In this document: in pieces, positions 3,501 through 36,500 of the stretch
How positions within the stretch are numbered: position 1 is the first letter of the stretch
Layout of the letters: each line of letters opens with the position of its first letter
Source: Sipunculus nudus
Lineage: Eukaryota > Annelida > Sipuncula > Golfingiida > Sipunculidae
Direction: 5' to 3'
DNA length: 64,000 bases
Assembly: GCA_026874595.1 (NCBI GenBank)
Contig: CM049308.1
Span: forward strand, 49,524,124 to 49,588,123
Program-made: the position numbers and the translations under genes
Notes under the pieces: model-generated
Database searches by the model: none
What the model was told of the DNA's origin: nothing
The model's input: the letters and a program-made list of their open reading frames with translations, nothing else

Positions 3501-6500
3501 ACAAGGGCTGTGAGGTTTGCCAGTGTAAACAACATGTATGTGAGGTAGGTAAACAGAAATATTACAAAACATACTAACAACAAAATTGAAGTTTTATAAA
3601 GCAATAAGCAGCTTCTGCAAGATTACTGATACATACCAGAAAACAAACTTTACCTTCAAGTAATAATTGATAAGCCAATTATTAAGTGCAGACCTTTTCA
3701 AGTGTAAATAGGTCATGGAGATTTTCAGAATGTCTGGAATAGTATATACTTATGAAAATATGATGATGTTGATCTTAAAATACTGGCCAACACAGTCCAG
3801 TTCTCAAAGCTGTCATTTTATGGAAGTACCGTGAATGTGACTGAGGGTAGGACCTGCCACTGATGTGTTTCTGATGTTTTAACAGTGGCGTCAATTTTTC
3901 TTCCAGGGTGGGGGGGATGACTTTGTATATATATATATATATATATATATATATATATATATATATATATATATATATATATATATATATATATATATAT
4001 ATATATATATATATATATATATATATATATATATATATACATCCACACATATATATATATATATACCGTTTTCATCATCTCCGAGTGACATATTCAACTA
4101 AATATATATAAATATATATATAATAATTATTATATATATACTTAATCATATTTCAAATAATTATAATGTTTTAGAAAATAAGTTATTTTGTGAATTTTAA
4201 GCAAGGTTTAGATATAACTTTGTTTAATTGTTTAGTAAATGGATCAAAGTCTTTAATTCTATTTATTAATATATTTCATTTGCAATATTATAATATTATT
4301 CTCTGAAAAATGGGGGGGATGATTACATTGACCATCCCCCCCTTGCGAAAAATTGGGGGGTATATATACCTCCCATCCCCCCCTATATTGACGCCCCTGT
4401 GTTTTAGGATGAAACATGCCCGACAGGACAGAAATGCAAGTCCAGCATCCACTGCATCGACAAGGCCAGAAAGTATTGTACACACAAATATGAATGTGTT
4501 GGTATGTAGTCCTTGTTAGTAGTTTATCTAAACTTAGTTGAATGTGTTGTTGGTAATTCAACTGTAAGTTGAATGTGTTGTTGGAAGTTCTTTGGAAGTT
4601 GGTTAAAAATTTTGTCAGTTCTTCAGTTGTCTTTTGAATGTTTCTGTTAATTATAGATTTCAAGTCAGTTGAAGATCTTTTTGTCATTAGTTCTTCAAAA
4701 GTATAATTGTGTTTTGGTTGTTTTTTTAAAGTGTCCTGAATGTGTCATTCAAAGTTCATATAAAGTCCATTGAATATCATATTTGGCAATGATTGTGTTC
4801 CATAAAAGTATTTTGGGGTTAATAATATTAATATTTTATGCTATTTTTTTTATTTTGCAGAACCATCCAAGGTTTGTCAAATGAAACTTGACAATGGCTC
4901 ATGTAAAATGGATATCCCTCGCTGGTTTTACAATGCGGCGTCAGGGAAATGTGAAAACTTCACGTATGGTGGATGTGCTGGTAATAAGAATAACTTCTAC
5001 CAGCAGAGAGAATGTGAAGAGACATGTAAGAGTATACCTACGCCACGTTCATCCGGCCAGAGTCCTGCAGGTAATATATGTGTAATTCTAGTGTCACTGT
5101 CATGCATGATTATACCCACACCACCTTCATCCTGCCCAGGTCCTGTAGGTAGTATCTGTGTCCCTGTCATGAGATAGTATACCCACACCTACTTCATCCT
5201 GCCCAGGTCCTGTAGGTAGTATCTGTGTCCCTGTCATGAGATAGTATACCCACACCTACTTCATCCTGCCCAGGTCCTGTAGGTAGTATCTGTGTCCCTG
5301 TCATGAGATAGTATACCCACACCACTTTCATTCCGCCCAGGCCCTATAGGTAGTATCTGTGTGATTGTGTGTCACTGTCATATAAGAATATACCAAGTTG
5401 AACACCACGTTCATCCACCCAGGTCCTGCATATAGTATATGTGTCATTGTGTGTCACTGTCATGTAAGTATATACCCACACCACGTTCATCCCCCCCCCG
5501 GCCCTGTGGATAGTATCTGTGTTACTGTCATGTAAGAGTATACTCCGGCCACATTTATCCTACCTAGGCCCTGCTGGTAGTATATGTATCATTGTGTGTC
5601 ACTGTCATATAAGAGTATACCCACACCACGTTTATCCTACCTAGGCCCTGCAGGTAGTATATGTATCATTGTGTGTCACTGTCATATAAGAGTATACCCA
5701 CACCACGTTTATCCTACCTAGGCCCTGCAGGTAGTATATGTATCATTTTGTGTCACTGTCATATAAGAGTATACCCACACCACGTTTATTCTACCTAGGC
5801 CCTGTAGTTAGTATATGTGTCAATGTGTGTCACTGTCATATAAGAGTATACCCACACCACGTTTATCCTACCTAGGCCCTGCAGGTAGTATATGTATCAT
5901 TGTGTGTCACTGTCATATAAGAGTATACCCACACCACGTTTATCCTACCTAGGCCCTGCAGGTAGTATTTGTGTTACTGTCATGTAACAGTATACCTATT
6001 ACATCTACTGCCAAGCATATTAATGGTGGCTGCTGGCAAGACAACATCAACTAGGTATTTGACTGAACACGTGTTTATTCCACTCCAAAGCCCACTCAAT
6101 CTTTCCTAGGAATGGTCTTGCATAGTCTCAAGAAGCTGGTGGCTGTGCATAGACAGGAATTATGGTCTATGCACAGCCCACAGACAAAGCTTTTTGCTAG
6201 TTCCTTTTATGCGACAGATACCTGGATATGTTTGGTGTAGCTCCTTGATGATCATTTCCTGTCCTTTCTTTGGAACTACAGCTCTATGTCCCTATAAAAT
6301 ACAACCCGTCTGCAGACTCAGCTCTGTCTTGCGATTGAAATATGGTCTTAGCATATTCTCTGGACACTGCTGTGGCCAACCATACTGCAGCATATTTTGA
6401 ACTTTGGCCAACACTTGATCTTTACTACGTCCATTTCCAAATATCCTCTGCAGTGAGAGGCATGCCTTCTAACAAGTTCACTGTTAATATAGTACCTCTG

Positions 6501-33500: not shown

Positions 33501-36500
33501 TCAATTACGTCAGAGCAGACCTCTGCCTCTGTTGTGTAAGTCATTTACGTCAGGGCAGACCTCTGCCTCTGTTGTGTAAGTCATTTACGTCAGGGCAGAC
33601 CTCTGCCTCTGTTGTGTAAGTCATTTACGTAAGAGCAGACCTCTGTCTCTGTTGTGTAAGTCATTTACATCAGAGCAGACCTCTGTCTCTGCTGTGTAAG
33701 TCATTAATATCAGGGCAGACCTCTGCCATGGCCCGATGTTTAGGTCTTGATATAAGAAAATAAAAAAAAAACAATTAGACAAGTTGATTGTGCTGTGATT
33801 AAGTTAGAGGCTGCTTATGTTGTTGGTGCTGTACTTTAGTAATATTTTGGACCGAGTACTGGTCTTGCCTCATATGAACTGAAACTGCTAGATTTAAGGA
33901 GGGAATGGTCCCCAGTGGGTGCAAAGTGATGATTAAGATTAAAAGGAATCCATTTATCAAAACTGAAATATTTGAGAGTTTTGCGGATACTAGGTTTTCA
34001 GCCCACCGCCTCCGCTGCCACAGAATGTGTATAGATCTCACATTGCTCTTTATCATACGCATAACTGGTGGCGCCACCTGCAACCATTTTTGCACAGCGT
34101 CCGTCTGTTTGTCTGCCAAGGGATAAAATTACTTAAATCTCTGCACTGGTTTGACTTATCTGCCTAAAATTTTGCAGGTTTATACATCTTGGATAGCTTT
34201 CTGGATTTTGTGGCAGGTGGCACCACCTACATTTATGTTTACGCTGCAGACATCCAGGCTTTTTTCTCGGGAACAGTTTGACCGATGGGGCCAAAATTTT
34301 GCATGTGTATAGATCTCACGTAGCTTTTTTATCATACACACAACTGGTGGCGCCACCTGCAACCATTTTTGCACAGCGTCTGTCTGTTTGTCTGCCGTGG
34401 GATAAAATCACTCCTATCTCGGCAGTGGTTTGACTTATCTGCCTAAAATTTTGCAGGTTTATACATCTTGGATAGCTTTCTTGATTTTATGACAGGTAGC
34501 ACCACCTACATTCACATTCACGCTGCAGACATCCAAGCTTATATCTCGGGAACTGTTTGGTGGATTGGGCCAAAATTTTGCATGTGTATAGATCTCACAT
34601 AGCTCTTTATCATACGCAAAACTGGTGGCACCACCTGCAACCATTTTTGCACAGTGTCCGTCTGTTTGTCTGCTGTTGGATAAAATCACTCATATCTTGG
34701 CAGTGGTTTTACTTTTTGCATTTGTATAAAACTTTGAAAGCTTTCTGGATTTTGTGGTAGGTTGCACAACCTACATACACATCTCAGCTGCAGACATCCA
34801 TGCTAATATGCAACACACCTCACTCTATTTCCCCTTGTTACTCAATCCATGCCTCACTCCACTGGTTCCACTCTGATTTTGGGGGATACACGTAGTCGCT
34901 TGTCAACTACCCGTATTCTAGTTGAGTAATCCTTAGAAGAGACAAGGCATAAATATACAAACATACAGAATAAAAACATTACCTCTTTGGAAAATAAATT
35001 AACCTTTTGTGAGATTTGTATATTTTGATCAGCAGCTTTCCCTCATGGCTTAACCATGAATGTTAAAATAATTTGCACAGAGCATATACTGTATCCCACA
35101 TACATTCAGATAACATGGTAATATATTAAAAAAGAATATTCATGCTGTCATATGCTTCTCGAGCTTTAAATCTATGTTATGTTTACCATTTGCTGTTTGA
35201 ATCTGATGAAAAGAAACCTGCTCAGTATTAAATTTGAGAATATTGGAATAAGTCTGTGAGAGAAATCATGCACATTAAACTGAGAGTTGCTTCACTCTGT
35301 TTTATCTCTTATTCTTGAATCAGCCTGAGATGATGGCTAACCCCAGGAGGGGGCGGATTACCCAATCAGTTATTAAGCTCCATTCATGTTAAATCTTGAA
35401 TGTTTTGGTTTTACAGTTTGTGTGGTGTAGATCCGGTAAGAAGAAAGAAGAAAAGGAATTTGCAGAGGTACGTTGAGTGTAAATCAAACTGAGTCACCAC
35501 TAATTCGTCACACTTTCAAGTCTGGACGAACTACGTCATATAAATGTTTAAAAAACTACTTTTCATCTTTGGTGCATTATCAGTAAAGTGAGAGCTAAAA
35601 GCCATAGGTTATCACCCATAACTTGAACCATTAAATGTTTCAGGTATCTTATAATAAAGGACCCAATTTCTTATGTTAAAGGCTCAGGTATTGTGTTGGC
35701 TTACACAAAGACAATGGTAGAATCTTAACAAATGGTTGTTTGTCATAAACTACTTAAGACATGAAGGCTACACAGTTTTACAGGCAAATAGCCAGTCAAC
35801 AAGTGGTATTGACATCATGTAACAGGTGACTGCAGTCCAGTAAAGACAGGAATTACAACTGTTGACACTATACATGCATGTTACAGCTTGACATAAAAAA
35901 ACCTGGGTCCATGATAGATGTATGGTTATATTTTTTTAAAAGGCTGATCAAATATGTCATAGTCCATTTAGAAAATTCATTGGACTTGGAAAGGAGGGAT
36001 ATACCCTCTGTGGACAAGACTTAACACTGCTGGATATTCCACAGATCATAATACAGAGCAGTACTTCTGTTTATACAAATGAAAATATAGCTGAGAAATG
36101 ACAGGCACAGATCCCTGCTAACCCCTGTTGTCACTTTATGTTTACTTGTAATTATCTTCTCATTGGACTGAATCATGTCTCAACTCAAGATATTCTCATC
36201 AAAGAGCCAACACAAACAAGTCATTCATGAGAAGATTTCTAGATTTCAGCAATATCATTTAAGGTGAAGTACTAGTAATGAGGTTTAGTTGAGACAATAG
36301 TTAGTTTGCGGATACATATCAGATCACACTGCTCCACCATGTACCTTAAGGTCCTTTATCATCATGCTTCTAGGTACAGGTAACATCTTAACCCCCATGT
36401 GGATCATCTAGATCAGATGACCTTAACATAGGTGGTAAGGATTCAGCTGAAATAAAGCCAGATCCTGAATTTTATACTCCTAATCCCATTATGTGATTCC

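Follow-up and report, generated by a model that had tools for sequence, protein, structure and literature searches.

Minisatellites at splice junctions are known from single human genes. In ABCA7, a variable number tandem repeat (VNTR) in intron 18 starts at the donor GT of the exon itself and consists of ~12-427 copies of a 25 nucleotide (nt) unit; the first donor of the VNTR is canonical, a second donor that retains one unit is also used, and longer arrays accompany more skipping of exon 19 and lower expression (PMC5954066). A 31 bp VNTR of CBS lies at exon 13/intron 13 and is designated c.1444_1467+7(16_21) (PMC2630376, PMC5188458, PMC1395315). Internal tandem repeats at exon-intron boundaries have been surveyed in human duplicated genes (PMC2812944), and proto-splice-site duplication comprises tandem duplication of sequence carrying splice sites (PMC2891723). 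Here we describe four arrays with the native splice site inside the repeated unit, all in one Kunitz/antistasin/thyroglobulin-1/WAP gene of Sipunculus nudus, part of which lies in the 64,000 nt stretch analysed (contig C3:49524124-49588123 of a 1.43 Gb genome; from now on the window), together with further cases outside it.

Splice junctions within the repeat units

Exon ends were rebuilt from open frames and splice phase, and the 25 exons of the window were found to splice phase-consistently into one open frame of 1105 amino acids, in which Pfam identified four Kunitz_BPTI, three Thyroglobulin_1, two Antistasin and one WAP stretch. Kunitz exons continue ~193 kb upstream of the window on the same strand and probably form one gene with the window exons. 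Arrays were called with Tandem Repeats Finder (TRF) and their edges set by local alignment of the array unit against the junction. This revealed that the tandem unit contains the native splice site in introns 7, 9, 13 and 23 and reaches into the exon by at least 3, 13, 25 and 11 nt, respectively (Table 1). The initial annotation, which was made from the DNA letters, had placed minisatellites at the splice junctions of these four introns; the unit-junction alignments and the Pfam-checked gene model confirm this, and its exon numbering agrees with the rebuilt exons.

In intron 13 the homology starts at 18244 and the donor lies at 18268 (ACAG/GTGGGT, the slash marking the junction). The annotated unit, beginning in ACAG plus the donor, was right as to the junction, its exon part being 25 nt and not the four bases named. 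Units related to this array resume past an insertion, up to about 21055; the insertion (19891-20870) has at each end an array of the 15 nt unit GGACAATTACCCCCC, the two being inverted relative to each other and ~590 nt apart. The homology in intron 23 starts at 32121, with the donor TGTTGT/GTAAGT at 32131. For intron 9 the border is reversed, the homology running up to 16669, the exon starting at 16657 and the acceptor reading ACAG/GTGTGACAAG, followed by 13 exon nt within the unit. Since these exonic bases start a thyroglobulin-1 exon (CDKDG), the unit was probably drawn from the junction and not the reverse.

The homology in intron 7 starts at 5023, giving 3 exon nt if the donor is CAT/GTAAGAG at 5025, the one named in the initial annotation. 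When scored with a matrix of 115 donors, 5025 and a second candidate at 5070 reached 6.14 and 6.61 and a third option at 5031 only -1.91, and as both of the former are phase 1 the sequence leaves the exon 7 donor ambiguous between them. Donor 5025 cuts within the codon of the final Kunitz Cys. Among 52 Kunitz exons from beyond the window, every donor chosen was placed 1 nt or more past this codon, in a search that permitted offsets of 0 or more only. With donor 5070 the unit includes 48 exon nt, and because 5025 gives 3 and 5070 gives 48, the array spans the junction under either donor. The DNA between the two arms of this array holds an element (11652-13682) with 15 nt terminal inverted repeats (CAGTGTTGCTCCTAG) and TATCTG on each side, which we take to be hAT-like.

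At the opposite borders of introns 7, 9, 13 and 23 short matches to the unit were all that was found, with local scores of 14, 10, 16 and 13 as compared with 85-138 at the array border. Introns are said to have arisen from tandem arrays (Zhuo, 2007), and such an origin was rejected for these four, only one border of each lying within the repeat.

Table 1. Exons and tandem arrays of the window and junction-spanning arrays of the sample outside it
Feature	Position	Strand	Description
Kunitz/antistasin/thyroglobulin-1/WAP gene, part of	406..37876	+	25 exons in window, stop in exon 25
Intron 1 array	733..1615	+	26 nt units; away from junctions
Exon 7 (Kunitz)	4861..5025	+	donor 5025 or 5070
Intron 7 array, first arm	5023..5996	+	units of ~67-77 nt spanning the exon 7 donor; right edge by extension
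Intron 7 array, second arm	13687..14387	+	separated from first arm by other DNA
Intron 8 array	14966..15802	+	38 nt units; begins at intron position +5; near miss, absent from the list of the initial annotation
Intron 9 array	16467..16669	+	32 nt units; last unit is the native acceptor plus 13 nt of exon 10
Exon 10 (thyroglobulin-1)	16657..16784	+	open frame/phase and Pfam
Exon 13	18032..18268	+	open frame/phase
Intron 13 array	18244..19885	+	units of 36 nt, of which 25 exonic and 11 intronic; in frame with exon 13
Intron 19 arrays (two)	27233..28788	+	32 and 29 nt units; no junction reached by unit-junction alignment
Intron 20 array	29243..29405	+	41 nt units; away from junctions
Exon 23	31922..32131	+	open frame/phase; hydrophobic stretch, putative membrane span judged by eye
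Intron 23 array	32121..33727	+	units of 40 nt, of which 11 exonic and 29 intronic; TRF and junction alignment
C21967 array	upstream block, 21967		donor of a C-type exon; unit AAGTCCAGGTGTTTTG/GTAAGG..., 16 exon + 22 intron nt
41916 array	upstream block, 41916		acceptor of a C-type exon; 11 exon nt, 51 nt units
L032 array	contig C12		donor of a Kunitz exon in a different gene; unit is the last 39 exon nt plus GTAAG
Immunoglobulin (Ig) exon array	6325		acceptor; post hoc; 3 nt exon overlap by TRF, exactly at threshold

Junction-spanning arrays outside the window

An independent sample was assembled from the 200 kb directly upstream of the window and from 22 shorter loci, 20 being 4 kb long and two 1.6 kb (the latter on contig C12). 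A search for the Kunitz family gave the best 150 of 221 candidate exon places, 59 of which are covered by the window, the upstream block and the 20 loci and two more by the contig C12 loci. Our own domain profiles gave 107 hits, from which 13 antistasin hits within long single exons and five unreliable ones were dropped; a scan of the gaps in the recurrent exon module added ten cysteine-rich exons, and one locus (L045) was set aside. The final sample comprised 98 exons (57 upstream, 41 in 21 loci) with 92 donors and 93 acceptors in 281,596 bases; the exons come mainly from around Kunitz domains of one genome. Donors scoring below 3 were excluded. Manual curation removed three acceptors in modules with the 45 nt array, two acceptors in L035 and the donor of L037; one upstream acceptor was shifted to 15499 and the donors of L036 and L042 were set. 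TRF arrays with a score below 100 or a period outside 12-130 were excluded. Of fourteen arrays marked as duplicated or dispersed, that of L032 and a single 45 nt array were restored manually; the other two 45 nt copies and L045 were left out as paralogs, and a Sushi locus (L047) entered no statistic.

Three arrays of this sample span a junction: two in the upstream block, at the donor and the acceptor of two C-type exons, and L032 on the other contig (Table 1). L045, a paralog of L032 (exon identity 169/183), has a matching array at the matching donor, with 9.7 copies as compared with 10.6, and since both paralogs carry the array at the same donor it probably arose no later than the gene duplication; too few bases aligned for a comparison of their flanks. 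A further case, at an acceptor, was found only by reading the flank of an array and is counted apart; its exon matches the Ig V-set domain of Pfam (E 4e-7, two exons joined). An effect confined to donors was dropped as an explanation once the acceptor cases at 41916 and 6325 appeared.

Some arrays start just past a splice site, which as called is then not included, namely at intron position +2 (198367) and +6 (60704) in the upstream block and +5 (14966) in the window. L034 (3191) is likewise listed among the near misses, defined as a start at +2 to +6 or an end 7 nt before the exon. One 45 nt array adjoins three paralogous Kunitz-like exons of the upstream block (112606-113822, 127436-135291 and 160112-160490, within L016-L021) with 27, 174 and 8 copies, and the open frame of the first of these exons, 499 codons, is long enough to include the array.

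As null model each array was collapsed to one unit and placed anywhere not wholly exonic, a hit being a junction spanned by 3 nt on both sides; seeds across junctions are thus treated as fully tolerated. For the window, a list of nine private arrays was made by hand, with the arms of intron 7 and the parts of intron 13 joined and transposon-like arrays omitted. Four of the nine span a junction as compared with 0.78 expected (P 0.004), or 0.88 with seeds within 1 kb of junctions (P 0.007), both values coming from the data that prompted the claim.

In the independent sample 3/12 arrays of at least four copies span a junction vs 0.33 expected (P 0.004), a cut that was chosen after the result for all arrays; the upstream block alone gives 2/10 (P 0.02) and the other loci 1/2 (P 0.08). 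The excess weakens with local nulls, to 3/11 vs 0.67 within 1 kb of junctions (P 0.026) and 3/10 vs 0.94 within 500 bp (P 0.06). Other cuts gave 3/17 for at least 2.5 copies (P 0.02) and 2/9 for at least ten (P 0.026). When all arrays of ~2 copies and up are counted the ratio is 3/28 vs 1.12 (P 0.10), with P 0.12 within 1 kb, P 0.26 within 500 bp and, within 300 bp, 3/14 vs 2.06 (P 0.34); the upstream block alone gives 2/25 (P 0.21). Joining two neighbouring 32 nt arrays gives 27 arrays (11 of at least four copies), keeping them apart 28 (12). With the post hoc Ig case the counts are 4/12 (P 0.0003, and 0.003 and 0.014 under the two local nulls) and 4/28 (P 0.025, and 0.028 and 0.10 under the same two), and with edges within 8 bp also counted 6/27 arrays vs 1.36 expected (P 0.0017). 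These P values are several views of one small sample and not independent tests.

The recurrence of junction-spanning arrays is thus real, and their enrichment is suggestive but not settled, its strength depending on the null. The proposal of the initial annotation that four cases in one gene are more than chance gains from the independent multi-copy arrays and loses under the local nulls (P 0.026-0.06) and in the count of all arrays. It would be the outcome of chance alone if ancestral introns were short, arrays common in the genome and a few seeds landed on junctions, in keeping with the all-array count and with the ascertained P 0.004 of the window; the multi-copy arrays of the independent sample, with or without the Ig exon, and the presence of the pattern in a gene on another contig speak against it, and we consider it improbable. 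The ~3-9-fold excess of arrays of at least four copies over uniform seeding may reflect chance, better survival of arrays close to exons or a genuine bias of mutation. Such arrays crowd near exons, 11/12 lying within 1 kb of a known junction (9/10 upstream, where 39% of the block is that close), so that one plain cause is that arrays survive better outside the intron centres, which are filled with transposons.

Under a mutational preference, splice junctions would be hotspots at which minisatellites are born, and R-loops, a paused polymerase or single-stranded DNA near the ends of exons are conceivable causes. The 3/12 count, the 6/27 that span a junction or lie within 8 bp of one, and the starts at +2, +5 and +6 fit such hotspots. 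Hotspots agree less well with the local nulls, the all-array and 300 bp counts and the upstream block taken alone, with a sample from one genome and mainly around Kunitz domains, and with the words of the units, in which a shared core motif as seed was rejected. The top word counts lie inside the 95% range of background maxima, both on the sense strand (5-mers: top 7, background median 6, 95% 8; 6-mers: top 4, median 4, 95% 5) and on both strands (5-mers: top 9, median 7, 95% 10; 6-mers: top 6, median 5, 95% 7). The commonest sense-strand words are splice-like, ACAGGT occurring in 4/20 units vs 0.27 per background set and GTAAGT in 4 vs 0.20, and some of the splice-like words come from the junctions themselves. 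Nothing points specifically to the R-loops, paused polymerase or boundary repair proposed in the initial annotation, no shared word exceeding background and donors and acceptors both being hit, and hotspots are regarded as unlikely. We hold only tentatively, as the less probable outcome, the general statement that junctions, donors and acceptors alike, are preferred minisatellite birthplaces here, several times the rest of the intron, and that splice-site arrays form a recurrent class with dozens of decoy or alternative sites per gene.

Origin of the arrays and fate of the extra splice sites

The unit of each array is the sequence of its junction, the units differ between introns, and the variation among the extra copies is like that in the remainder of the unit. 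Genome-wide, a 16-mer from the unit of intron 7 has four occurrences, all in intron 7, and a 33-mer of the intron 9 unit is found in three places genome-wide at up to two mismatches, all in intron 9. In the 347 kb compared, no junction unit of the window has a match (E 1e-4) more than 12 kb away. Because the units differ from intron to intron and lack matches past 12 kb in the 347 kb, with the units of introns 7 and 9 confined genome-wide to their own introns, the births look local and independent. Shared ancestry through duplication of exon modules was rejected on the same absence of distant matches; exceptions, elsewhere, are the paralog pair L032/L045 and the three copies of the 45 nt array. 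Dispersed arrays do occur here (units of ~278, 337, 32 and 22 nt), and the junction arrays could in principle be dispersed satellites or transposable elements targeting splice sites, which the confinement of their units, genome-wide for introns 7 and 9 and within the 347 kb for all four, makes exceedingly improbable.

The copies add many potential splice sites. On the 115-donor matrix, sites scoring at least as high as the native donor number 27 in the intron 13 array, 34 in that of intron 23, six in C21967 and four in the first intron 7 arm. L032 has no such site, but its array holds ten that exceed the 10th percentile of real donors, a level reached by 3.3 sites per kb of intron outside arrays. 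The GT is retained in 36/44 extra copies in intron 13, 37/40 in intron 23, 6/6 in C21967, 9/9 in L032 and 7/8 in L045, and the AG in 6/6 units of the intron 9 array as compared with only 9/21 of the 41916 array. In none of the five donor arrays tabulated is the exon-derived part of the extra units better conserved than the intron part (intron 13, 0.917 vs 0.944; intron 23, 0.902 vs 0.932; C21967, 0.938 vs 0.939; L032, 0.940 vs 1.000; L045, 0.907 vs 0.950), and the donor columns have only a small edge over other columns (0.948 vs 0.920 in intron 13, 0.931 vs 0.922 in intron 23). The exon unit of intron 13 is identical to four array copies and is the only exon unit with such identity. As the exon part is no more conserved and the donor columns just slightly more, the extra copies, judged from the sequence, carry no clear sign of selection and look young and drifting rather than kept.

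The intron 13 array has ten consecutive donors (18268-18592) that keep the phase of exon 14 and lengthen the frame by 12 codons each, and 19/23 such donors ahead of the first in-frame stop (19216) are in phase; the repeat between 18244 and 19216 could encode a 12-residue repeat if inner donors were used. A coding minisatellite was rejected as a general account, unit lengths being divisible by 3 only in intron 13 (36 nt), the 41916 array (51 nt) and the upstream 45 nt array, and intron 13 running into its stop. Copies may also be kept because they are functional, either as alternative donors giving repeat-containing isoforms, as in intron 13, or as binding sites of the U1 small nuclear ribonucleoprotein (U1 snRNP). 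Binding of U1 snRNP guards long introns against premature polyadenylation. The strong sites of introns 13 and 23 and the in-phase run agree with a function; the donor columns that barely exceed other columns, the scarcity of strong sites in the first arm of intron 7 and in L032, and the frame-shifting units of introns 9, 23, L032 and C21967 (32, 40, 44 and 38 nt) do not, leaving it a very small likelihood.

The explanation preferred here, to which we give a probability of about 0.6, is local tandem duplication across the junction, tolerated since the outermost site stays usable, and followed by growth of the array. Each array would have begun as a local tandem duplication of ~30-70 nt that by chance straddled an exon-intron junction and would later have grown by slippage or unequal exchange. 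Splicing would use the outermost copy, that is the first donor or the last acceptor, leaving the mRNA unchanged and the remainder removed as intron, and a duplication across a junction could be tolerable where one inside an exon would not be, which would explain why such duplications are not purged. Ordinary duplication together with tolerance suffices for the anatomy of the arrays. We infer both the use of the outermost site and mostly neutral growth; by analogy, the canonical first donor of ABCA7 backs such use.

Several points weigh against this explanation. Tolerance alone does not account for 3/12 vs the 0.33-0.94 expected, being already built into the null. The intron 13 copies, in frame for ten units, could enter the protein by splicing. 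The C-type exon at 21883-21966 matched our own profile at just E 0.28, the one at 41916-42003 came from a spliced open-piece search requiring five Cys, and neither has a Pfam match, so that as real exons both are weakly supported. In people, long arrays of this kind appear costly, with the exon 19 skipping and lower expression of ABCA7 (PMC5954066) and lower CBS activity with longer CBS arrays (PMC2630376, PMC5188458, PMC1395315).

Relation to other repeats and to known systems

The remaining arrays of the window are listed in Table 1; for the first of the two in intron 19, automatic extension shifted the edge weakly to 27209, and this was not counted as spanning. Two oppositely oriented arrays of the 21 nt unit TTATCTCGTACGTACGACATA, ~3.3 kb apart (54102-57700), are perhaps the two ends of a single element, and an 83 nt array of ~70 copies (44704-50529) lies downstream of the last exon.

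If junctions were preferred, there would be a fixed landmark from which to read how a minisatellite originated, since selection holds the exonic copy and this copy marks the founding unit. Even if they are merely tolerated, such arrays offer natural experiments on splice-site choice by the spliceosome when tens of almost identical donors or acceptors compete. They are also a warning to gene annotators, as exon ends in such genes may be misplaced, and two such human arrays, in ABCA7 and CBS, have been tied to gene activity.

The architecture as such is already known from the single cases of ABCA7 and CBS. Several such arrays in one gene were not found in the titles or abstract openings among the records listed in the literature searches, and recurrence of the architecture within one genome seems to be new. 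The arrays described here resemble that of ABCA7 in that the tandem unit carries a native splice site; the ABCA7 unit starts at the GT, with no exon bases named, and splicing and length variation were measured there, the present comparison being of sequence alone. The repeats of duplicated human genes (PMC2812944) are likewise minisatellites at exon-intron boundaries that affect splicing, but they are reported to form novel introns in young duplicates, whereas each array here covers one intron border only. In tandem-array introns and proto-splice-site duplication the repeat supplies both borders, whereas the opposite borders here have only short unit matches. Closest is CBS, of which the unit by the published numbering has 24 exon and 7 intron nt, near the 25 + 11 of intron 13, and as in CBS the units include coding bases (at least 3, 13, 25 and 11 nt in the window; 16, 11 and 39 nt outside). 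CBS is described with one array, variable in the population, whereas here several unrelated arrays occur in one locus and one more in another gene.

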